In this document: piece by piece, positions 13,818 to 31,002 of the stretch
Numbering within the stretch: position 1 is the stretch's first letter
Layout: each line of letters opens with the position of its first letter
Assembly: GCA_001816455.1 (NCBI GenBank)
Contig: MHCB01000006.1
Span: forward strand, 1-43,739
Reading direction: 5' to 3'
DNA: 43,739 nucleotides
From: Candidatus Blackburnbacteria bacterium RIFCSPHIGHO2_12_FULL_44_25
GTDB lineage: Bacteria > Patescibacteriota > Microgenomatia > UBA8517 > UBA10165
Translations under genes and position numbers: made by a program
Notes under the pieces: generated by a model
Database searches by the model: none
Seen by the model: only the letters and a program-made list of their open reading frames with translations
Told to the model about the DNA's origin: nothing

Positions 13818-16800
13818 TCAGGGGGCAATTTCTTCCCATACAGGGTTATCCCGCAGGAGTTCTTTTGGAAAGTTGAGCATAAGATCTGGCGCGTATTCGA
13901 CAAGTTCTGCAGGATTTGTTTCGTTTGTACCGATAAGTCGCGGGGGTGGGTCAAGATCCCTTTGGAGAATTATTGAGTTCCAGGCGACGAGGGATCCACG
14001 AATGATGAGTTTTGAGTCGGGAGAAGAGCTGTTGGTTCCGGTTCTTATTATCCCATCGGCAACGTATACTCCTTCAATTGCCGGAGAGCTTGCGTTTGCA
14101 ACTCCCGGATCGATATTAATATCACCTGCTGCGATTGTCGCAAAGAATCCAGAGCCTTTGGTTAAATTGACTTTTCCTTGGATTGTTAGTGTCCCGTTTA
14201 CAAACAACACAATCTTTTTGGTACCGATACTCGTGTCGCCGGTTATAGTTAGATTTCCATTAGAATAAAACCAATTGTAGGAGGAAGAGCCGCTTTGGGA
14301 AACTAGTGAACTACCTGCAATACTTCCGGATATGTTTGTTGCCGTTGCCGGAAGTTTTTTCAAGAAGTAAGCATATTTGTAAAGATCCCCGGAATATCTT
14401 GAATTTGCTACCCATCCAGTTTGGGAAACTTGTCCGTAGCCCAAATTAAGATTTGACCCACCGTACATTGGGACTCCGGGGAATCCGCCGTCGCCTATTA
14501 AGTCAAGATAAGGAGAGCAGCTGCCGGAACACTGAACTGGAATTCTCGAGACAAGATTGTTGAAAGCAGCAATGTCTGAGTCTTTTACCTGGAACCATGG
14601 AACAGCAATTGGGGTGATACCGAAATTAACGGTTGTGTCGCCACTTAAATTGGAGACTGTTACCGGATCTGGGCCTTGGGTTAGACGGTATCCTGCAGGA
14701 AGTTCCAAGTCTACTGTATAGTTTTCCCCTCCCGCAAGTTCCGAGGCTATATAGTTGCCACTTGAATCGGTAGTGCGCGGACTGCCATTTACAAAAACTC
14801 TTGCTCCGCCATACCCCGGCTCTCCTCCATCTTTTGCTCCATTTGCATTATTGTCCTGGTAAACTTGGCCTGAAATTTTATATGTCGTGCCTTTGACGCA
14901 GATGTCGTATGCCAAAACGAATGCGTTTGAGTTAACACTCTCAAACGGGTTTGCCCAATAATTGGTGTGGCCCGCAATTGGAGTATCGAATTCCTTAACC
15001 GTGTTGCCCTGGTTTGTTCCGCCGGAAAAGTAGGCAGCGCAGGCTGCGTCGTTTCCGCCGTAGCACATACCGATAACTTTAAGCTTGTACGCTGTTGGGG
15101 CACCAACGCTAAAGGCAAATGTGCGTGCTCGTATCTCGTCGTATGTTCCGTCAAATGAGAAAGAACGCGTTGGGGCGCCAGCTTTGATTTCTATGTGCTG
15201 GCTCGTTTGAGGCCGGAAGCAACGGGGAAATGTTGACGGTTCATTTGGGGTTTCTATACAGGTGTCGTTTCCTGAATGTTTCCATTCTTTATAACAGTTA
15301 TTGCCCTCGTCGTCGCATATCTCTTCGTCAAACCATCCGCCGTCCATGTTTTGAGAAGGACAGCCCCCGATGGTTCCATCGGCATTTATTTGGTAGCCTG
15401 GATCTTTGTAGGGATGCCAGGGGGCAAATTCGCAAGCGCTTACACCATTTGAGAAATGTCCGGTCTCGCATTTATCGTCGTCTATATTTGGTGCGTTTTC
15501 CCCGGGGTATGGGACTCCTTCATCATCGGTACAGCTCCAGCCTTGTGCTTCGGCTTTATACAAAGGATAAAAAAGGCTGTTGTGTTTTTCCTGACCGTCA
15601 TTGTCGTCTTCTAAAAGATTGATTGTTTCGGGTTGGTTGTATGGCGTTGTGCAGTCTGCGTTGAAAAATCGCAAACGAACCTGGCCTGTTCCCGAGCAGG
15701 CTTGGCCCGGGCGGCTACAGCTTTGGCTTGGGTTATTTGAACAGGTTCCCCAGGAAACGGAACCGCAGGCGGGTTCGGCAGCGTTACAGTTCCCGCAAGA
15801 GCCATCACTACCACCGGTTCCTCCGCTGCCACCACTACCACTGCCTCCACCACCGGTTGTGAATGCAGGGCTACTTGAGTCGCATGCTCTTTTTTCGTTC
15901 TCGCCGCCGGAGTCCCATTGCACGGCTTGTGCAGAATAACTGGTCCCGGGTGTGAGCCCTGTAAGGCCGGCTGAAGGGCCTGAGTTTGTGCCGATATAGG
16001 TGCTATTCACAAACCAGTCGACACGATTCCTGCCTGAAAGCATGTCGGTACTGGCATTTCCTGTGGTGTTCCCTGTTGCGCTTGCTGAGGTGGAACAGTC
16101 TTCGGTGGTGCCACCGCCGGTTGGGGGAGGTGTGACCCCAGAACAATAAGGAACGCTAATAGTACATGGGTTGCCGCAGGAATCCTGGCCGCTTTGAACG
16201 CCTGAGGAGCTGCAGGCAGTGGAGGCGCTGCAGCCGGTACAAGTTCCAACATTGACCGTGCATTGGGCGGATTGTCCGCCCGATGAAGTTACTGTTACGG
16301 TCTTTGTGCCACTACTTTCGTATTGAACGGGGCCAAAACTGGTTCCGCTTCCAATCCCGGGGTTCCCGTCTGGAGCAGACCAGGAGAGTGTCCCTGTTCC
16401 CCCGCTGGCAGTAAACGAGGCAAGACCACCGGGTTGGATGGATTGGGAAGAAGGGGTGCAGGAGAGGGAGGAAGAGGGGGGGCTTATGTTAACCACCATC
16501 GTGACAGGACTGTTGCCATTTCCTGCTGTGTTGCTGCAAGTAAGAACAAAGTTGTAGGTGGACAGGCTTGAACTCCAATAAAGGGGCCCTATCCACGCTG
16601 AGTCTTGCGGAAGTTTACCTCCTGACCAAACGTTGTTTGTGCTTGCTGCGTCACAAGTTTGTGCTCTTAAGGAGGACCACGCAAGCTGAACTGAGCCGCC
16701 ACTGGGAATCGTTGTAGACCCCCCACCCTGCCCGCCGGCACCATTTGCTGTTAGGGAGGTGTTTGGAGCTTGAGTTATACATTGATGCGCAGAAGTACAT

Positions 16801-18237: not shown

Positions 18238-18729
18238 TCAAGGGTTTGAGGCTACTGGAACGTAGGATATAGAAACAATCTTGTATACTCCCCCGTCGGC
18301 CTGAAGAGTGATAGTCGCCTTCTGATCTAATTTAATTGCGCTTAGCCCTGTTGAGGTGTTAGGGGGCTTGGTTAGGCTTCGAAACGTATAAATTTGGACA
18401 TTTGGTGCTGCTTCGAAACTATCTGTTTGCCCCTGATCGTCTCGCATGGTAAGTGTATTGTCTTTAACTCTTGTTACAAATCCATTTATTGTTGCTGTTT
18501 GTCCGATGAAGAGTGGGCTAGTTTTGAGGCATGCCAGTTCAGTGCCGGCCGTTTTTTGTCTTGGCAACCATCCAAGCACTTCGGGGAACATCTTTGAGAG
18601 ACTTAAGATATTGAAATAGTTTAAGACTGCGAGTGTGGCTAGAAAGAGGACGACGGTTCCGAATATGGCTGTAAGAATAAGAGGAAGATCAGAGGAGGGT
18701 TTTTGTTGAGGAAGGTTTGCCTGCTCCAT
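18238..18729 (-). CDS. Single-TM hypothetical protein
   Basis: MEQANLPQQKPSSDLPLILTAIFGTVVLFLATLAVLNYF then a small beta-rich extracytoplasmic domain (FIGQTATINGFVTRVKDNTLTMRDDQGQ). Confidence 0.7.
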   Translation of the reverse strand: MEQANLPQQKPSSDLPLILTAIFGTVVLFLATLAVLNYFNILSLSKMFPEVLGWLPRQKTAGTELACLKTSPLFIGQTATINGFVTRVKDNTLTMRDDQGQTDSFEAAPNVQIYTFRSLTKPPNTSTGLSAIKLDQKATITLQADGGVYKIVSISYVPVASNP

Positions 18730-18764
18730 GCTTTAATACTAGAATTCACCCTCTTCTTTGTCAA
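18729..18764 (-). promoter_or_regulatory. Leaderless sigma70-type promoter TTGACA-N17-TAGTAT, 6 nt to ATG
   Basis: -35 18759-18764, -10 18736-18741, ATG at 18729; copy 1 of a triplicated cassette. Confidence 0.7.
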
Positions 18765-18773
18765 ATTGGAGTT

Positions 18774-19616: not shown

Positions 19617-20186
19617 TTAAAATTTTCTTTCTCTGCTTGAGGTTGGTGCCAACTCTGATTCAAGTTTTCTTGTTAAGAGTGCTATTGTGTGGTCGAGCGG
19701 GCCGTTGTTTTCTATATGAAAATGGGCCTTGGTTATCAATTCCATCATTCCTGCTGCAAGTTTTAGTCCATCAATAAATTCCATCTCTTTTGTTGCCTGT
19801 TCTGCGGGCGTGCCTTCCCGATCTGTAACTCTTTGTCGTCTATTTGCTTCGGTTGTGTGAATGTGGATTACAAAAACTCTGCTCTCTGGAAAAGCGGTTT
19901 CAAGATGGGTTAGAAAGTTGGGGTCGTAACAACCGTCTATTATAAAGCCTGGTTGGGCAACTTGTTCTTGGATAAGCTCAACTGTTCTTTGAGCTGCTCG
20001 GTCCCTTACACCAGAGGTCCCGATAGTTTCCATCCAATCTCGTGTTCTTTGATACCCTGCTTGTTTTGTAAGCTCTGCGGTGATTTTTCTTTCTTCAATA
20101 ACTGACAGTTTTAGTGCCTGACTGATTGCCTTAGTGATAGTTGACTTGCCAGCCCCAGAAAAGCCAGTGAAGATAAATAAGATCAT
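19617..20186 (-). CDS. P-loop kinase (adenylate/nucleotide-kinase-like)
   Basis: FTGFSGAGKSTITKAI Walker A, GFIIDGCYDPNFL, R..Q RVTDRE. Confidence 0.75.
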   Translation of the reverse strand: MILFIFTGFSGAGKSTITKAISQALKLSVIEERKITAELTKQAGYQRTRDWMETIGTSGVRDRAAQRTVELIQEQVAQPGFIIDGCYDPNFLTHLETAFPESRVFVIHIHTTEANRRQRVTDREGTPAEQATKEMEFIDGLKLAAGMMELITKAHFHIENNGPLDHTIALLTRKLESELAPTSSRERKF

Positions 20187-20638
20187 TAAGGAATTGCTGG
20201 TAGGGACTTAACAAGCTCTTTGGTTCCGGGGACGAGATTTTTTATTCTTCCTAGATCTTTAAGTTTTATCCATTTATATTCATTGTGTTCTGACGATAAG
20301 GTAATCTTGCCAATTAGTTTAGAAGTTATTATTATTCTTAGGAGATGGAATTTCTTTCCTGCAAACGGGTAGATTAATGAGAGTGCATGTACAATCTTGG
20401 GCCTTGATGGTTTACAGCCAAGCTCTTCTGTTATTTCCCTTTTGAATGTCTCCAGGGGTTGTTCGCCAAACTCTATTTTGCCTTCCGGTAGCTGCCAAAA
20501 GTCGGGGAATGTTTTACTGCTTGTGCTTCTGCGGACAACGAGTATCTCGTTCCTAGGCTTAATTATTACACCAGTTACTAAAACTATAAAATCTTTGAAA
20601 TGGGCTATTGCTGGTTTTTTTGTAGTTTTACTTGGCAT
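20186..20638 (-). CDS. NUDIX hydrolase
   Basis: Nudix box GKIEFGEQPLETFKREITEELG. Confidence 0.9.
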   Translation of the reverse strand: MPSKTTKKPAIAHFKDFIVLVTGVIIKPRNEILVVRRSTSSKTFPDFWQLPEGKIEFGEQPLETFKREITEELGCKPSRPKIVHALSLIYPFAGKKFHLLRIIITSKLIGKITLSSEHNEYKWIKLKDLGRIKNLVPGTKELVKSLPAIP

Positions 20639-21563: not shown

Positions 21564-21585
21564 CGCACTTCCGATGTGTGATGTT
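21564..21585. repeat. Palindromic repeat copy A (cgcacttccgatgtgtgatgtt)
   Basis: Shares CACTTCCGATGTGTGATGT with copies at 23195 and 30981. Confidence 0.75.
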
Positions 21586-21815: not shown

Positions 21816-22271
21816 ATGGACGCATATGTAGGTGTAGTTCTAATTGACGCCAAAGAGCGTGTCTTTCTTATTAAGGAAGATGACAAGAATCATATCTCAA
21901 GGGGTAGATGGAATCTTCCTGGCGGCTCTGTTGACAGAAACGAATCTTTACCCGAAGCGGCACTTAGAGAAACAAAAGAGGAAACGGGCTGCGATGTAAG
22001 AATAACTTCTTTGCTGGGTGTTTATGAGTGTAAAAAGAGTGACAAGAATTGGCTTTATGTCGTATTCGAAGCAAGATTGGCTAAAGAGAGAAGGGGTAGA
22101 CCCGTAGATCCAGAAGTTAAAGAGGGTAAGTGGTTTACAAAAAATGAATTTCTACACCTGGACTCTTCTCAAATAGTTCACCCTGATATGCAACTTGTTT
22201 ATAACGTGGCTATCGGGGAACGTGGCTTGGATATAAACTGCGTAAAATATATTAATTACGACGACCAATAA
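21816..22271 (+). CDS. NUDIX hydrolase
   Basis: Nudix box GGSVDRNESLPEAALRETKEETG. Confidence 0.92.
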   Translation: MDAYVGVVLIDAKERVFLIKEDDKNHISRGRWNLPGGSVDRNESLPEAALRETKEETGCDVRITSLLGVYECKKSDKNWLYVVFEARLAKERRGRPVDPEVKEGKWFTKNEFLHLDSSQIVHPDMQLVYNVAIGERGLDINCVKYINYDDQ

Positions 22272-22274
22272 GCT

Positions 22275-22337
22275 GGGGGAGGTTTGCCTGCTCCATACCT
22301 TATGTTAGAATCTCTATCTGTGTTTTGTCAAACAATT
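22275..22337 (-). repeat. Leaderless promoter/start cassette copy 2 (TTGACA-N18-TAACAT, then ATGGAGCAGGCAAACCT)
   Basis: Matches 18729 cassette through the -35/-10 and MEQANLPQ codons; reading frame stops soon after (MEQANLPQLIGRRN*). Confidence 0.7.
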
Positions 22338-23111: not shown

Positions 23112-23187
23112 GAGGAGGGTTTTTGTTGGGGAAGGTTTGCCTGCTCCATACTTTATATTAGAAGTGCGTGTTGTTCTTTGTCAAATT
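23112..23187 (-). repeat. Leaderless promoter/start cassette copy 3 (TTGACA-N18-TAATAT, then ATGGAGCAGGCAAACCTTCCCCAACAAAAACCCTCCTC)
   Basis: Near-identical to 18692-18768; frame closes as MEQANLPQQKPSSVDPACYN*. Confidence 0.8.
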
Positions 23188-23194
23188 CCCTGTA

Positions 23195-23216
23195 TCACAC
23201 TTCCGATGTGTGATGT
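23195..23216. repeat. Palindromic repeat copy B (TCACACTTCCGATGTGTGATGT)
   Basis: Perfect TCACAC/GTGTGA inverted repeat, identical 21-bp core to copy C. Confidence 0.8.
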
Positions 23217-23420: not shown

Positions 23421-24281
23421 ATGTCAAAATTACAAAAGAAAGTAAATGGTGGTGACTCTAAACTTGAAACGTTAATTTCTTCTTACCCTGGTCTGTTAAC
23501 CTATAAGGGTTTTTTATCTGATTTATATGATTTTTCTACAGAATCTTCTTTTGTAAGAGGTTTTTGGGTTCATGGGTCTCGTATTACTGGCTTTTACCAT
23601 GAATTTTCTGATCTAGATATAGCCTTTGTCTTGGATAGTGACAAATCCAAGGGGAAAATAAAAAACTACCTGTCCGGTAAAATTCACTACGATCCAAGTT
23701 TTCCAGAATACTTTCTAGACACTTTATGTGAATATTGGGAATTAAATGGTATAGAGGTTGGTGTTCACATTTATACCCTCAAAGAGGTAGGTGCCAAATT
23801 GTGTAGTTTAAACAGCTCTGTTGAATTTTTTGAGCGAACTCAGGCTTTTGTGGAACATGTTTTTCTTGAATCTCTTTTTTTGGTAGATAAGGGTATGGTT
23901 TTGAAAAAGTTCAAGGATAAGGCTTATAATTACCCGGAGGATATTCGCACTGAAATAATTGAACTTTACAAAAAGAGATTGGAGCAAAAATTTGTTTGGT
24001 GGCAGAAGCGCCCTATATGGAAAAGTGTTTTTGAAGAAATTACAGATTTGAAACTGATAATCGATGAGATATCTAAGTTACATTATGCAATTAATCGTAG
24101 ATATTATGTTTATGCTTTGAAGAGTTATGCAAAAGACTTAGAGACTTTAAAGCCAAATATTAAAGATGCAGTGTTTAGTATTTGTACTATAAATCCACAG
24201 AGTTTTGAAGGAAAGGACAAAAGGAAACTAATTATGCAAGTGTTCAGTAAATTAATGCGATATTATGATGAGTATAAGTAA
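23421..24281 (+). CDS. Nucleotidyltransferase-fold protein (pol-beta/aminoglycoside-NTase-like)
   Basis: FWVHGSRITGFYHEFSDLDIAFVLD = GS...G...SDxD motif. Confidence 0.75.
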   Translation: MSKLQKKVNGGDSKLETLISSYPGLLTYKGFLSDLYDFSTESSFVRGFWVHGSRITGFYHEFSDLDIAFVLDSDKSKGKIKNYLSGKIHYDPSFPEYFLDTLCEYWELNGIEVGVHIYTLKEVGAKLCSLNSSVEFFERTQAFVEHVFLESLFLVDKGMVLKKFKDKAYNYPEDIRTEIIELYKKRLEQKFVWWQKRPIWKSVFEEITDLKLIIDEISKLHYAINRRYYVYALKSYAKDLETLKPNIKDAVFSICTINPQSFEGKDKRKLIMQVFSKLMRYYDEYK

Positions 24282-24314
24282 AAAAGATTTTTAATGTAAA
24301 TTATTAGTTTGAAA

Positions 24315-25313
24315 ATGATTAAAATAGTTGACGTAACAATCCGCGATGGGGGTTATGAGAATAATTGGAATTTTTCGCTCAACTTCGTGGATTCTTTAAT
24401 AAGGGGTTTAGCCGAGGCTGGGATTGAATATATAGAAGTTGGGCATGGGTATGGGTTGGGGGGAGAAAGAGATTTTGGGGCTATGGCCCATACAGATAGA
24501 GAATATCTTGATTTAATAAACAAGATAAACATCAATGCCAAAATAGGAATGTTTGCAAATGTAAATATTTGCAAAGTTGATGATGTTAAACTGGCTGGAG
24601 AGTTTGGCCTTGACTTTTTAAGGGTTGGATTCATAGGATACAGAAGTCCCCATCCAATGTCGGGATTACCTCAGTTAGTTGGTGAGGCTAAAAGGCAAGG
24701 TATGTTTGTTTCAGTGAACATGGTGTTGTCAACTTTATATTCAGATAAAGATCTATTAGAAAATCTTAAATTCATTGAAGACCTGGGGTCAGATGTAATT
24801 TATTTGGTTGATAGTACGGGCGGTATGTTACCAAATGAGGTGACTAGAAAGATTGAACTCCTAAAAACTAATAGTAATATATTAGTGGGTTTCCATGGAC
24901 ATCAAAATTATGATTTGGCTGTGGCTAATTCACTGTCGGCTGTTAAAGCTGGTGCAGACTTTGTTGACGGAACACTGCTTGGTCTAGGTAGGGATCTTGG
25001 TAATGCTCAGCTTGAAATATTGATAAATGTACTTGAGGATTCTGGTTACAATCTGGAAATAGATTCCATGAAGCTTGTTGATCTAACCGATAGCGTGGTT
25101 TCATCTCTTTTTGAGAGGTCGCGAGGTGCACGGAAGCAAAATATATTGATGGCTAAATATGGAGTAATGAAACATTCCTTGGATCTTGCTTACAAAATTG
25201 CAGAAGAAAAGAAGGTGGATGTAAGAGAAGTGTTAGCCCTTATGAAAAACAAGAATATCCATTTTCCAACCTACGAGGAGGTTGTTGGTTATTTTGTTAG
25301 AGGAAACCGATGA
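24315..25313 (+). CDS. HMGL-like aldolase, 4-hydroxy-2-oxovalerate aldolase (DmpG/BphI/MhpE) type
   Basis: VDVTIRDGGYENNWNF, YIEVGHGYG, VDSTGGMLPNEV, VGFHGHQNYDLAVANSLSAVKAGADFVDGTLLGLGRDLGNAQLE. Confidence 0.82.
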   Translation: MIKIVDVTIRDGGYENNWNFSLNFVDSLIRGLAEAGIEYIEVGHGYGLGGERDFGAMAHTDREYLDLINKININAKIGMFANVNICKVDDVKLAGEFGLDFLRVGFIGYRSPHPMSGLPQLVGEAKRQGMFVSVNMVLSTLYSDKDLLENLKFIEDLGSDVIYLVDSTGGMLPNEVTRKIELLKTNSNILVGFHGHQNYDLAVANSLSAVKAGADFVDGTLLGLGRDLGNAQLEILINVLEDSGYNLEIDSMKLVDLTDSVVSSLFERSRGARKQNILMAKYGVMKHSLDLAYKIAEEKKVDVREVLALMKNKNIHFPTYEEVVGYFVRGNR

Positions 25314-26272
25314 AAGTTGTTGCTGTTGGAGGTTATATTTTTTTTAAGAAAGAGACTTATGCGAGACTTACAAAAGTTTCCGACTTCATGCATATTAAAG
25401 AGGAGCCTTCGGAAAAAGTTTTGGGGGACGCGGCCAAACAAGCTGATATTGTCGTAACTTACGGGAAAATCACCCCCTCGTTTATAAAAAAATATAGGCA
25501 CCTGAAAGCTATTATTGTATTGTCAACCGGAAAAGAAGACCTTGAAAGTGCAGAGATGTTAAATGCTGCTTCTGATTCGGATACTTTACTAATGTATACA
25601 CCGAAGTATTCAACGCAGTCTGTTGCTGAGTATACCTTAGCAGCACTGTTTTCCCTTCAAAGTAAAATATTGCTGGCTACAAGAGCCTCTTTTTTGGATC
25701 AGAGTTTTGGGGTGCTTGATTCTCAAAGGGTTTGTCTAACAAACAGTACAGTAGGAATTGTTGGTCTTGGACATATTGGTGCATATGTTGCAAACATATT
25801 GTCAAAACTAGACATAAACACTCTTGCATATACAAAGCACCCTGACGGCAAAAAACTTGATGATTATAGGGGATTTTTGACCTTTTCTCCCACTCTTGAG
25901 CATTTGTCATCTAACTCTAATTTTGTTGTGGTGACGTGCAGTTTAAACCCAGAAACTGTTGCTTTCCTCAATAAAACGTCCTTTTTTGATCATCTTAAAG
26001 CAGATGTTGGACTAATAAACACCGCTAGGGGAAGGATTTTCAATCCTGATGATTTATATAAATTTATTTCGGAAAAGAAGAAATCATGCCTTTTTGTAGA
26101 CGTTCTAGATTTCGATCTGGAAACTAACAACAAGCTGCGGCAGCTTCCCAATGTGTTTGTAACTCCACATATAGCTTTCAATAGTTTAGAAAGTCTTTAT
26201 AACTGCACAGATGTTGTTGTGGAAGACATTGGAAGTATATTAGCAGGCAAGCCTATTAACATTGTAAAATAG
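25310..26272 (+). CDS. D-isomer-specific 2-hydroxyacid dehydrogenase
   Basis: TVGIVGLGHIGAYVANILSKLDINTLAYTK, VGLINTARGRIFNPDDL, NVFVTPHIAFNSLES. Confidence 0.88.
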   Translation: MKVVAVGGYIFFKKETYARLTKVSDFMHIKEEPSEKVLGDAAKQADIVVTYGKITPSFIKKYRHLKAIIVLSTGKEDLESAEMLNAASDSDTLLMYTPKYSTQSVAEYTLAALFSLQSKILLATRASFLDQSFGVLDSQRVCLTNSTVGIVGLGHIGAYVANILSKLDINTLAYTKHPDGKKLDDYRGFLTFSPTLEHLSSNSNFVVVTCSLNPETVAFLNKTSFFDHLKADVGLINTARGRIFNPDDLYKFISEKKKSCLFVDVLDFDLETNNKLRQLPNVFVTPHIAFNSLESLYNCTDVVVEDIGSILAGKPINIVK

Positions 26273-26407
26273 ATGAGTGTCTTTGGTGGTCCGCCAAAAA
26301 TCCAGGTTGGGATGAGGCTTGATGTCAGGATTGAGTCGCTTCAACCGAATCGTCGGGACCCAACACGAAAGGATGTGAATCTTGAGTATGTTAGACATAT
26401 AAAATGA
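26273..26407 (+). CDS. Small ORF (44 aa) translationally coupled on both sides
   Basis: MSVFGGPPKIQVGMRLDVRIESLQPNRRDPTRKDVNLEYVRHIK*; starts right after upstream stop, ATGA overlap with next ORF. Confidence 0.4.
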   Translation: MSVFGGPPKIQVGMRLDVRIESLQPNRRDPTRKDVNLEYVRHIK

Positions 26408-26607
26408 ATCTCCCACGAGGGATAAAAAATGAAAGATTCAACACACGACTTTACGAAATGTTTATAAAAAAGATGGCCGACAGAAATATTTTATTCCCTC
26501 CTTTACCAACAGAAACAGTTTTCCTATCTCCAGTTCACGAGGAAATAATAGACGATATTGAAAGAGCATTAAAAACTACTTTGTCAGAAATGAGGGATGC
26601 AAAATAG
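26404..26607 (+). CDS. 67-aa ORF resembling the C-terminus of class-III aminotransferases (glutamate-1-semialdehyde aminomutase)
   Basis: LYEMFIKKMADRNILFPPLPTETVFLSPVHEEIIDDIERALKTTLSEM parallels FF..ML..GVYL.PS.FEA.F.S.AH...DI..T..A. Confidence 0.5.
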   Translation: MNLPRGIKNERFNTRLYEMFIKKMADRNILFPPLPTETVFLSPVHEEIIDDIERALKTTLSEMRDAK

Positions 26608-26609
26608 TT

Positions 26610-27830
26610 ATGAGTTCTCAAAGTTCAACCATCCTGAGTAATCTCAATAAGACAATAATGTCGGCCAAAAGGACACGGCTTTACAAGGATAAAAACCTGC
26701 ACAAAATAAATTCAATAAGCGAACTGTCGGGTCTTCCGTTTACCACAAAAGAAGATCTAAGGGGGGCTTATCCATATGGGGGCTTAGCAGTTTCCGAAGA
26801 TAAAATTATCGAGGTACATACTACGTCAGGAACCACAGGTAAGCCAACCCTTTCTTTTTTAACAAGAAAAGATCTTAACGAAAGCTCAAAGGCAATTTCT
26901 GAAGCCTGGAGGGCCTTTGGAATTACTAAAAATAGCAAAGTTATGTTCATCATGAGTTACGGTTTGTTTAGTGGAGCGGCTTTAAATACATATGCGATTC
27001 AGAGTATTGGTGCCTTTGTTCTTCCTGCAGGAATTCAGCCTGTAAAAACGCAGGTAGATTTTATGGTTGAATTTGGAATAGATACTGTTATCGCTACCCC
27101 AGGGTTTTTGCTTTATCTTTATGAGTGGATGGCTGCAAATGATTTTGATCGTAGTAGGCTCAAGCTGGTTAGGGCTATTGCCGCTGGTGAAGTCTATTCC
27201 AATAAAATACGAAGGGAAATCGAGAAGAAGCTCAAAATAAAAGTATTTGACCACTACGGATTGTGTGAAGTAAATACAGGAATAGCTTATGAATGTGACA
27301 AAATGCAAGGTCTACATGTGATAGACGATTATGTCGTTCCTGAGATAGTAGACCCTGAAACCGGAAAGGTAATGCCTGAAGGAGAGTATGGAGAACTTGT
27401 GCTGACAAGTCTCAAAAAAGACGCCTCCCCCATTGTTCGATATAAAACCAAGGATATTACTCGTATTATTCCCGGTAAATGCCCATGCGGTAGACATAGA
27501 ATCCGCATTGACAGAATAAAGGCTAGAGTCGGAGAAACGCTATTTATTAAGGGAATAAAGATTGATCCTTATGAGCTGAGGGATTTTATTAGGGAATATC
27601 TAGGAAAAAGCTTTTTTGGTGGAGACATGCAAATAGTTGTGAAAGATAATGACATAAAGTTTCTGCCAAAAATTTTTCTTAGTCTCGTCCAAAATGATGA
27701 AAAAATAATTAAGAGCTTGACGGAAAAGATATATGAACAGACAAGAACCAGGTTTATTGTTGAACATGCTGACCCACAGTTTTTTAATAGAGAGAAGAAC
27801 AATAAGGTTAAATTCATCCATCATGAATAA
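26610..27830 (+). CDS. Phenylacetate-CoA ligase (PaaK)-family adenylate-forming enzyme
   Basis: TTSGTTGKPTLSFLTRKDL, DHYGLCEVNTGIAYEC, GELVLTSLKKDASPIVRYKTKDITRI, CPCGRHRIRIDRIKAR. Confidence 0.88.
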   Translation: MSSQSSTILSNLNKTIMSAKRTRLYKDKNLHKINSISELSGLPFTTKEDLRGAYPYGGLAVSEDKIIEVHTTSGTTGKPTLSFLTRKDLNESSKAISEAWRAFGITKNSKVMFIMSYGLFSGAALNTYAIQSIGAFVLPAGIQPVKTQVDFMVEFGIDTVIATPGFLLYLYEWMAANDFDRSRLKLVRAIAAGEVYSNKIRREIEKKLKIKVFDHYGLCEVNTGIAYECDKMQGLHVIDDYVVPEIVDPETGKVMPEGEYGELVLTSLKKDASPIVRYKTKDITRIIPGKCPCGRHRIRIDRIKARVGETLFIKGIKIDPYELRDFIREYLGKSFFGGDMQIVVKDNDIKFLPKIFLSLVQNDEKIIKSLTEKIYEQTRTRFIVEHADPQFFNREKNNKVKFIHHE

Positions 27831-29013
27831 CAAGTTTGAAGTGGATTCCTTATGTTACGACTTGGTTACTTGGCTTAATAAAAAGAAGAGCATAATTTTC
27901 AAATTAAACAATGAATGCACTCAAGATACTGAATATTCAATAAAAATTGATTTTCAGTTTATTAATCAGTATCTACTCTCTTACTCTAAAAACAATTCAC
28001 ACTTTTTCAACTCTCAATTGAAGCCAAAAGGAAAGGTCATACTTGTTTTATCGTTTAACGAACCATTAGTTACAGCGATAGTTCCAGTTCTAAACGCACT
28101 GGTTGCAGGGAATGAAGTTGTGGTTCGTCCAAGTAGGCGGGGGACTAGAATTTTTGACTACATATGGAAAGAGAGTGGTGTTTGTCAAAAATATGGAGGG
28201 AACCTAAAGACAATGTCTGGTGGTGGGCCGGAAGTTCTAGAAAAAGAGCTCATGTGTGCACAAGCTTTATATTTTTTTGGTGGACATAAAAACGCAAAAA
28301 CAGTCTTTCTTTTATGCTCTAAGAACTTTGTTGAGTTCTATCCTGAAATCGAAGCCGCAGATTTTAAAGTTGTCAAGATTAGCAATCTTAGTAACTTCGA
28401 TATGGATCAAGATATTGAAACTTCACTAACGGAGGCTTTTACTCACACTGGACAAAGCTGCCAAAGAATCCAAGGAATATTTGTTCACGACAGCAACCAT
28501 GAAGAGTATTCAAAAAGAATCCTTAAAAGGTTCAATCAACTAGTGTTGTCAAAAAGAATAGAAAGATATATTTCTCCTAATTTTAATTTTGATGAAACAA
28601 TGGTTCAACAATTAAATGTTGATATGTCAAAAGCCGCACCAACAAAACTTATTAGGGCAAACAATAAATTTGGGTTTCCCGTTTTGGTCCTAAATCCAAA
28701 TCCTAAAAGTGTCTTTGTTCAGTCTGCTTATTTTTTGCCAGTCATCTGGGTAACCAGGTACTCAACAGAAGAAGAATTGTTTGATAATATATCCTCTCGA
28801 CCATACCATCTTGGAGTAAATATCCAATCGGATGAGGATAAGTTCATCCAGAAACTAATAAGAAAAACAAATTTTACCAGATATACAGTTAACACTGATC
28901 ACTCGAGAGTTAGACCTAACGAAGGATGGGGTGGAAGTTGGCCGACCGGCTATTCTGGGAACAAAAGCTGGTTGGAGCTTTTTTCATACCCATATCAAAT
29001 CGTGACACAATGA
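27823..29013 (+). CDS. Aldehyde dehydrogenase-family / acyl reductase protein
   Basis: PVLNALVAGNEVVVRPSRR cofactor region; catalytic Cys motif FTHTGQSCQRIQGIFV; 8-nt overlap with ligase gene. Confidence 0.8.
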   Translation: MNNKFEVDSLCYDLVTWLNKKKSIIFKLNNECTQDTEYSIKIDFQFINQYLLSYSKNNSHFFNSQLKPKGKVILVLSFNEPLVTAIVPVLNALVAGNEVVVRPSRRGTRIFDYIWKESGVCQKYGGNLKTMSGGGPEVLEKELMCAQALYFFGGHKNAKTVFLLCSKNFVEFYPEIEAADFKVVKISNLSNFDMDQDIETSLTEAFTHTGQSCQRIQGIFVHDSNHEEYSKRILKRFNQLVLSKRIERYISPNFNFDETMVQQLNVDMSKAAPTKLIRANNKFGFPVLVLNPNPKSVFVQSAYFLPVIWVTRYSTEEELFDNISSRPYHLGVNIQSDEDKFIQKLIRKTNFTRYTVNTDHSRVRPNEGWGGSWPTGYSGNKSWLELFSYPYQIVTQ

Positions 29014-29045
29014 AATCTTGGAATTACAGGGAGGAAGTCATAGAC

Positions 29046-30317
29046 TTACTCTGCCTCGATTGCTAGCATGTTTAACGACCTTTTTCCCAGCCTAATCACG
29101 AAACTTCCATTTTCGGCAAGTTTTATGTGTGCGGTTTTTGGGTCAATTGGTATACCATCAACATAGAACCCGTGTTGCTCGATCAGTCTCCGCACATCCG
29201 CTTTACTCCTAGCCAAGTTTTTCTCAACTAGCAAGCTCACTAGAGCTTTGATGCTAATATCTCCAGGTTCAAGCTTACTCCTTAGAACTGATTCTGGGGT
29301 TTCCATCCTTTGAACAGTACTTTGGAAATATGTTGCAGCGTTATCGGCAGCTTCATTACCGTCATAGAGTCTTACTACTTCATGTGCCAAAACCTTTTTC
29401 AGTGCTACAATATCTGCGGTCCCATCGTGTAATTCTTGTATTGACCTTCCTACAAAATCCATAGGAAGTCGAGTTGCACATTCTAGATATGTGGGTATAA
29501 GGGAGTCGGCAATCTTCATCAATTGAACGTATTTTATCTCCGGAGTGTCGTCGATCCATATGCAGTTTCCTATGCTAGTACTCATCTTTTCTCCATCGGG
29601 ACCTATTAGCAATTGGGTGGTCATATAATCCTGAGGAGGCATACCATATGCCTCTTGAACATCTCGTCCTTTGGTGAGGTTATACGTTTGGTCGGTCCCC
29701 CCAAGCTCAACATCAGCGTTAATCATTACAGAATCATACGCCTGAAGAAGAGGATAAAATGCTTCCGCAAATGAAACAGAGTCGCCCCGACTAATTCTAT
29801 CGGAGAAATTTTTTCTTCCCACCGCTTCCTGCATTGTCTGACATGATGCAAGTCTTAAGAGTGTATCCAGTGAAATATTTTCCAACCAATCAGCATTATG
29901 AACTAATTCCAGCTTTGAAACATCAAGGATCCTAGCAAATTGCTGCATATAATCTTTAATATTATCTGCAATCTGTTTCGGCGTGAGTCCTTTTCTGGCA
30001 CCTGTCTTATCAGATGAGTCGCCAACCTGTGCGGTTCCGTCACCGATAATTATCACAATTTGATGTCCTAAATCTTGAAATTCTTTCAGTTTTAACAGAG
30101 TAGATCCCCGACCTACGTGTAACCTAGAGCCCGTAGGATCAATTCCCAGCTTGACTCTTAAAACTGTGCCTTCCTCCAGCAACCTGGCCCGAAGATGTTC
30201 CTTATCAGCCACTTCAACTACGCCTCGAGTCAATAGCTCATCTACTCTACTTTCTATTTCCTTTCTGCTGGCTGTTTCGGGAATCATGGCTTCAGGTTTT
30301 ACTCTTTCTCCAGTCAT
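29046..30317 (-). CDS. tyrS: Tyrosyl-tRNA synthetase
   Basis: GIDPTGSRLHVGRGSTLLKLKEFQDLGH, AYDSVMINADVELGGTDQTYNL, GEKMSTSIGN, C-terminal S4-like domain. Confidence 0.93.
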   Translation of the reverse strand: MTGERVKPEAMIPETASRKEIESRVDELLTRGVVEVADKEHLRARLLEEGTVLRVKLGIDPTGSRLHVGRGSTLLKLKEFQDLGHQIVIIIGDGTAQVGDSSDKTGARKGLTPKQIADNIKDYMQQFARILDVSKLELVHNADWLENISLDTLLRLASCQTMQEAVGRKNFSDRISRGDSVSFAEAFYPLLQAYDSVMINADVELGGTDQTYNLTKGRDVQEAYGMPPQDYMTTQLLIGPDGEKMSTSIGNCIWIDDTPEIKYVQLMKIADSLIPTYLECATRLPMDFVGRSIQELHDGTADIVALKKVLAHEVVRLYDGNEAADNAATYFQSTVQRMETPESVLRSKLEPGDISIKALVSLLVEKNLARSKADVRRLIEQHGFYVDGIPIDPKTAHIKLAENGSFVIRLGKRSLNMLAIEAE

Positions 30318-30502
30318 GGTATAGCGAAAATTATACACCACGATCCAGCCCAGTCAAGCTATATACTTTAGGAAAATCATTCCGCGCCCTTTTTCTCTTG
30401 AAGCAAACAGGGTTCTTCACATTGCTCTGAGCGCCAGACTCACACCGAGAGAGATGGTGGATGTTGACAGTTGGTCCGGTCCGGAATAGACTAAGACCCA
30501 TA

Positions 30503-30959: not shown

Positions 30960-30980
30960 GACGCTGAAATTGGGTATGGA

Positions 30981-31002
30981 TCACACTTCCGATGTGTGAT
31001 GT
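30981..31002. repeat. Palindromic repeat copy C (TCACACTTCCGATGTGTGATGT)
   Basis: Identical to copy B over 22 nt. Confidence 0.8.

Follow-up and report, generated by a model that had tools for sequence, protein, structure and literature searches.

The window analysed here is a stretch of 43,739 nucleotides (positions 1 to 43,739 of contig MHCB01000006.1) from Candidatus Blackburnbacteria bacterium RIFCSPHIGHO2_12_FULL_44_25, a member of the Candidate Phyla Radiation (CPR). It carries a compact operon of putative biosynthetic enzymes, ending in a ligase and an aldehyde dehydrogenase (ALDH), and beyond it a second tyrosyl-tRNA synthetase gene (TyrRS2; TyrRS for the enzyme in general). The seven plus-strand open reading frames (ORFs) of the original prediction are all present (Table 1, with the small ORF 26273-26407 as the seventh), and re-reading their junctions gave the same result: a 4-nt overlap at 25310-25313, a TAG stop followed directly by ATG at 26270-26275, an ATGA overlap at 26404, a 2-nt gap at 26608-26609 and an 8-nt ligase/ALDH overlap at 27823-27830. 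The enzyme names were correct at the superfamily level, with Pfam and NCBIfam profile matches far better than chance. Five main ORFs are pathway candidates and the two small ones are not pathway genes; the tight coupling near 26404 exists, being partly a by-product of a deletion or replacement. The relevant unit extends beyond 29013 to the convergent TyrRS gene, and the operon is real and of more interest than had been thought, for two features not seen before: an aminotransferase stump and the second TyrRS. The preferred start codons are ATG 24315 for the aldolase (TTG 24309 is a possible alternative) and ATG 27823 for the ALDH. Both halves of the operon have a G+C of 0.33-0.38 compared to 0.44 in the flanks, and the G+C at third codon positions (GC3) is 0.29-0.34 on either side of the internal junction, indicating that they form one island.

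Table 1 Features of the operon and of the adjoining synthetase gene in the window.
Feature	Position	Strand	Remarks
Nucleotidyltransferase (NTase)-fold protein (polymerase-beta type, PF01909)	23421..24281	+	286 aa; candidate nucleotidyl transferase
HMGL/DmpG-superfamily metal-dependent aldolase	24315..25313	+	332 aa
D-2-hydroxyacid dehydrogenase (D2HDH)	25310..26272	+	320 aa
Junction of replaced front half with old core	26273..26403	+	131 bp
Aminotransferase stump, not a working gene	26404..26607	+	67-aa ORF, last ~63 aa of a glutamate-1-semialdehyde (GSA)-type class III aminotransferase
PaaK-like adenylate-forming ligase, core gene 1	26610..27830	+	406 aa
Divergent short ALDH, core gene 2	27823..29013	+	396 aa
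Second divergent tyrosyl-tRNA synthetase (TyrRS2)	29046..30341	-	Proposed self-immunity enzyme

The ligase (PaaK-type profile match, 8.8e-76) resembles the phenylacetate-CoA ligase PaaK in its adenylate-forming fold, its closest PDB match (4r1l, 3.8e-67) and its TTSGTTGK loop, kept at position 71 as the original prediction had proposed to inspect; it differs in scoring below the PaaK equivalog models (255 bits against a cut-off of 700, 236 against 646) and in having an ALDH partner, and by its scores is classed as a member of the PaaK superfamily, not as PaaK. The ALDH matches PF00171 (Aldedh; 8.5e-26, 90.9 bits, cut-off 23), and its AlphaFold model matches ALDHs (probability 1.00, TMq about 0.7); this fold search returned general ALDHs alone, a result compatible with oxidising and with acyl-reducing types. 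Against the LuxC model it scored 14.2 bits in the window and 21.8 in a related locus (L055), the cut-off being 21. The cysteine of its GQSCQR motif (codon 28459-28461) is invariant in all five loci described below. The products of PaaK-like ligases are acyl adenylates or thioesters of CoA, and ALDH-fold and LuxC enzymes are able to reduce such adenylates and thioesters; the ALDH is proposed here as an acyl/adenylate reductase. The predicted acid activation and reduction to an aldehyde is supported by the recurrence of both genes as the unchanging part of all five CPR loci. In all five main ORFs the families were confirmed and motifs kept.

Related cassettes were found via the ligase or the ALDH, not via TyrRS. 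With the ALDH as query, 362 CPR genomes yielded close relatives in two, G341 (40% identity) and G232 (32%). The ligase alignment, restricted to two peptide patterns, was scanned against 84,980 species genomes and picked up L058 to L061, two of these four loci being ones already found with the ALDH (L059 is L055 of G341 and L061 is L056 of G232). L058 belongs to Ca. Woesebacteria, and L060 and L061 to Ca. Saccharibacteria. There are therefore five distinct loci (the window, L055, L056, L058 and L060), and the window ligase is 73, 58, 44 and 47% identical to its four relatives. No further close member turned up in 329 genomes of the class to which the window belongs or in 343 of the Saccharibacteria class, and the ligase is absent from the three genomes checked of the window's own family (G001, G002, G005). 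No ligase relatives were found in viral contigs, and plasmids held distant PaaK, ALDH, DmpG and housekeeping-type TyrRS relatives alone. The cassettes occur in three versions: A (L055, L056, L058), with an APH/ThrB-type kinase, a NadR-like adenylyltransferase, a GSA-type aminotransferase, ligase and ALDH; B (L060), with an NTase-fold protein, an iron-containing alcohol dehydrogenase (Fe-ADH), ligase and ALDH; and C (the window), with an NTase-fold protein, aldolase, D2HDH, aminotransferase stump, ligase and ALDH. Of the gene order proposed as worth searching for elsewhere, the ligase and ALDH core thus recurs in five loci, and the full window order occurs in a single genome. The cassette of G341 (L055) has restriction-modification-like genes on one side and an integrase-type transposase on the other (L055:952-7523 and 15061-15963), an arrangement suggestive of horizontal transfer.

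For the 67-aa ORF ahead of the ligase, NCBIfam PRK00062 gives a match to the C-terminal end of glutamate-1-semialdehyde aminomutase (E 8.8e-4, model positions 374-427 of 429); the ORF is 58.7% identical over 63 residues to the intact aminotransferase of L055, which lies just ahead of the same ligase, and 59% identical to that of L058. The pyridoxal phosphate (PLP) domain is missing, the last ~63 of ~400 residues being left, and no other copy of this aminotransferase was found in the window's 95.7%-complete genome. An acyl carrier protein (ACP) or a new gene, considered for this ORF, was thereby rejected. At the DNA level the window and L058 can be aligned over 3.85 kb at 68.6%, a stretch (window 26428-30248) that covers stump, ligase, ALDH and TyrRS, with no alignment upstream; the point where the likeness ends marks the breakpoint of a front replacement. 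As read from these alignments, the window carries a recently rearranged version of what is a rare cassette in CPR: its kinase, NadR-like and aminotransferase genes were replaced by NTase, aldolase and D2HDH, the stump being left behind. The junction 26273-26403 has a host-like G+C of 0.458, compared to 0.33-0.38 in the operon, and is single copy in the genome; the 44-aa ORF at 26273-26407 is probably meaningless. A substitution count for the stump against ligase and ALDH found synonymous sites saturated.

The best clue to the function of the cassette is the second TyrRS, which lies beyond the ALDH in four of the five loci (gaps of 32 bp in the window, 22 in L058, 6 in L060 and 72 in L056), on the opposite strand to the operon in the window, L058 and L060 and on the same strand in L056. 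A housekeeping role for the gene at 29046 was rejected: it scores 273 bits with TIGR00234, against 318 for a canonical TyrRS elsewhere in the genome (G000:C38:4121-5263), and in all four genomes the canonical copy scores higher (318, 310, 334 and 328 bits vs 273, 272, 218 and 264 for the linked copies). A lineage trait was rejected as well, the same-family genomes G001-G005 each having a single TyrRS. Two full TyrRS genes were found in only two of 145 evenly drawn CPR genomes (the window's and G195) and in one more (G021) of the 22 relatives checked; with three overlaps removed, two TyrRS occur in four of five cassette genomes vs 2 of 163 others (Fisher p 2.3e-6, a guide only, the genomes not being independent). 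The arrangement known for self-resistance synthetases of biosynthetic gene clusters, a second synthetase beside the biosynthesis genes with the canonical copy elsewhere, is thus found in four of the five loci. The TyrRS2s of the window and L058 read HVGR for HIGH (at 75 in the window) and KMSTS for KMSKS (at 252), that of L060 reads KQSKS, and the linked copies have Lys in place of the canonical Tyr at the start of the GxDPT motif. All four keep the full synthetase length, including the C-terminal region, and score above the TyrRS cut-off. In the tree they group together, apart from the canonical copies (94/94; 58-93% of bootstraps), this grouping including two long branches and dropping to 58-78% with one left out. 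In both Saccharibacteria (L056:4156-5385, L060:4229-5446) the canonical TyrRS also lies close upstream, the cassette standing between two TyrRS genes. A different CPR gene group that includes a duplicated TyrRS was seen in G021 (L083:4211-11341) and G195 (L076:182-4560); by gene names read from the sequences, it has an M20 peptidase, TyrRS, a GNAT acetyltransferase and an EamA transporter, plus a PLP decarboxylase in G021. It contains no ligase or ALDH and is possibly another pathway with TyrRS immunity.

In the front module of the window, the NTase matches Pfam NTP_transf_2 (1.9e-5, 25.4 bits, cut-off 21) and has GS at 52 and SDLD at 63; it shares the fold and the GSx..SDxD motif with the NTase of L060, with no significant BLAST similarity, and its AlphaFold model, built without an alignment, had a pLDDT of 37. 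The aldolase (PF00682 HMGL-like, 2.5e-36) passes the subfamily model PRK08195 marginally (230.3 vs a cut-off of 229) and fails the equivalog model TIGR03217 (205 bits vs 286). Aligned to PDB 1nvm and 3dxi, it keeps R10, D11, H194 and H196 at the positions of the DmpG metal-site residues Arg17, Asp18, His200 and His202, so that the metal ligands singled out for inspection are present; it has Tyr and Met at the positions of His21 and Tyr291, catalytic in DmpG, and PDB 3dxi likewise reads RDGGY in the His21 region. It therefore resembles the aldolase of DmpFG/BphIJ in its Arg/Asp/His-x-His metal site and is, contrary to the DmpG/BphI assignment first given, not an ordinary member of that type. 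There is no DmpF acylating acetaldehyde dehydrogenase in the operon, the neighbour being an unrelated ALDH; the earlier view that ALDH and ligase had taken its place does not hold, as the new front displaced the kinase, NadR-like protein and aminotransferase instead. HMGL-like aldolases with such a metal site handle 2-oxoacid enolates, D2HDHs reduce 2-oxoacids, and NTase and NadR folds transfer nucleotides. The D2HDH matches PF02826 (2-Hacid_dh_C, 1.1e-32) and PF00389 (8.8e-11), with GLGHIG at 152, Arg240 (NTARG) and His287 (TPHIAF), and Asp269 close to the usual Glu position. A single-sequence scan of genome contigs with the aldolase gave no match; its closest CPR relative (L034) is 36% identical and lies in a surface-polysaccharide-like cluster (L034:3465-12449), between a holo-ACP-synthase-like gene and an acyl ligase, with ACP and cyclase-like genes further along. 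In other CPR (L035:2381-7933, L036:6050-11692, L037:6424-11910), DmpF-like and DmpG-like genes occur with a thiamine-diphosphate enzyme and adjoin a sugar-phosphate nucleotidyltransferase and a sugar dehydratase-like gene, resembling branched-sugar synthesis.

What is established is the gene content, the linkage to TyrRS, the conserved motifs, the constant ligase and ALDH core and the exchange of the front that left a stump. The substrate, the product and the immunity we infer: our leading interpretation, held at slightly less than even confidence, is that the cassette makes a nucleotidylated, probably tyrosine-like inhibitor of TyrRS, with TyrRS2 as self-immunity. The common intermediate would be an aldehyde, because each of the three front modules holds a possible aldehyde consumer (aminotransferase, Fe-ADH, or aldolase with D2HDH); the original scheme predicts such a consumer plus nucleotidyl transfer, and each version carries both. 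HemL acts on an alpha-amino aldehyde, and the version A aminotransferase is closest to HemL (318 bits vs about 145 for ArgD), pointing to an alpha-amino aldehyde and fitting one derived from an amino acid, while the TyrRS linkage points to tyrosine. The carboxylic acid activated by the ligase would probably be tyrosine or a closely similar compound, and its activated acyl group would be reduced by the ALDH to the aldehyde, which the front module would diversify by amination or aminomutation (version A) or by reduction to an alcohol (Fe-ADH, L060). The window front may add a 2-oxoacid to the aldehyde by an aldol reaction and reduce the adduct to a 2,4-dihydroxyacid, three carbons longer and with two hydroxyls, this being the least certain step. 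Once the nucleotidyl transferase had added a nucleotide, the product would imitate tyrosyl-adenylate and inhibit TyrRS (tyrosinal or tyrosinol made from tyrosine and joined to a nucleotide would be such mimics), and TyrRS2 would be an insensitive copy protecting the producer. Aminoacyl-adenylate mimicry is a known route to block a synthetase. A broader proposal, that this is a mobile, combinatorial CPR system in which one ligase and ALDH pair converts tyrosine or an analogue to an aldehyde and interchangeable fronts yield different nucleotidylated mimics of tyrosyl-adenylate as anti-TyrRS antibiotics, with a dedicated TyrRS2 immunity lineage, seems to us somewhat unlikely.

Several points weigh against an inhibitor with TyrRS2 immunity. 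G341 (L055) has the cassette and a single TyrRS, with none beside the cassette; the choice of tyrosine as the putative substrate comes solely from the TyrRS link; and in three loci TyrRS2 is convergent with the operon and hence not co-transcribed with it. Across classes the TyrRS2s are only 30-36% identical, and long-branch attraction may account for their grouping. There are only five loci, the window version being present in one genome; the window NTase has no relative among 323 CPR genomes, and the cassette contains no exporter.

Four other explanations were weighed. The window copy might be a decaying relic that lost its front, the NTase, aldolase and D2HDH being an unrelated insertion with no common pathway; the aminotransferase cut to 67 aa, the kinase and NadR-like genes no longer adjacent, the host-like G+C of the junction and the finding of this gene combination just once are consistent with it. 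We regard it as unlikely, mainly because L060 swapped independently, in the same place, to an NTase plus an aldehyde consumer; moreover, the five main ORFs are intact with their motifs kept, aldolase/D2HDH and ligase/ALDH are translationally coupled, and the same low G+C runs across the junction. That base composition is likewise the main argument against an assembly chimera joining unrelated DNAs at 26273-26403: a single contig of a metagenome-assembled genome whose junction exactly divides two gene sets could suggest one, but G+C and GC3 match on both sides and the remainder of the aminotransferase is nowhere in the genome, making a chimera very improbable.

TyrRS2 might instead be biosynthetic or tailoring (making Tyr-tRNA or transferring tyrosyl onto the product), perhaps also giving immunity, with ligase and ALDH using another acid. 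Precedents are SbzA, an extra isoleucyl-tRNA synthetase (IleRS) that both tailors and resists (PMC12945691), and AgnA, a biosynthetic enzyme derived from a synthetase (PMC4392301), and the altered HIGH and KMSKS motifs of the window and L058 would agree; the four copies are however full length and above the TyrRS cut-off, and no peptidyl or acyl transferase partner is present in the cassettes, so we find this decidedly unlikely. Quite improbable, finally, is the original scheme, a 2,4-dihydroxyacid for a surface glycan or nucleotide-linked metabolite with TyrRS as a chance neighbour: the polysaccharide genes around the aldolase of L034 and the DmpF-DmpG pairs with CDP-sugar genes in L035-L037 speak for it, but no glycosyltransferase, flippase or sugar-nucleotide gene lies directly beside any of the five cassettes, leaving the glycan attachment unsupported, and the TyrRS2 linkage (4 of 5 vs 2 of 163) speaks against chance.

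For the inhibitor with TyrRS2 immunity, the closest parallel is agrocin 84, which inhibits leucyl-tRNA synthetase (LeuRS) and whose producer carries the self-immunity LeuRS AgnB2 (PMC5059758, PMC4392301). The two systems are alike in a nucleotide-type synthetase inhibitor (only inferred for the window) and a second divergent synthetase encoded with the biosynthesis genes, and AgnB2 has a KQSKS loop for KMSKS (PMC5059758), as in L060 TyrRS2; they differ in target (LeuRS vs TyrRS) and in setting (a 17-gene plasmid operon vs 5-6 genes on CPR contigs). An extra target synthetase beside the pathway is also encoded for obafluorin (ObaO, a threonyl-tRNA synthetase; PMC9854587), ascamycin (AcmD, an alanyl-tRNA synthetase) and SB-203208 (SbzA, an IleRS) (PMC12945691). 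Neither TyrRS nor CPR is concerned in these three. We know of no ligase and ALDH core like that of the CPR cassette in their pathways. Version A resembles the C5 haem route in its predicted acyl reduction to an aldehyde followed by a HemL-like aminotransferase, and differs in having ligase and ALDH for glutamyl-tRNA reductase, an aminotransferase below the HemL cut-off, and kinase and NadR-like genes alongside.

Secondary metabolism is held to be uncommon in streamlined genomes such as those of Patescibacteria (PMC12455944). The enzyme families are known already, as is the immunity strategy in other bacteria; there is, as far as our searches reach, no description of CPR hosts, of the ligase and ALDH core, of swapped modules or of TyrRS as a linked target, and the papers searched included none on TyrRS self-resistance or TyrRS duplication in Saccharibacteria. 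A small cassette with a second TyrRS would offer a concrete target, and a mechanism, for a CPR compound, and the three front modules and single swap scar among the five loci are a natural experiment in pathway recombination. The cassette is small enough for whole expression in E. coli. If an anti-TyrRS antibiotic system is confirmed, this would be one of the first antibiotic pathways from such reduced organisms, and the antibiotics could serve against hosts or rivals.

An Rfam search around the cassettes was negative for T-boxes and other RNAs, and PADLOC gave no credible defence matches. Short intergenic repeats 86-100% alike surround the operon (window 23112-23187, 18692-18767, 22274-22310, and 23191-23216, 30977-31002, 21566-21584), one of them containing the near-palindrome CACACTTCCGATGTGTG, which might be a terminator. 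Nudix hydrolase genes lie near the cassette in the window (20186-20638, 21816-22271) and in L060 (L060:5450-6016), which may be chance.

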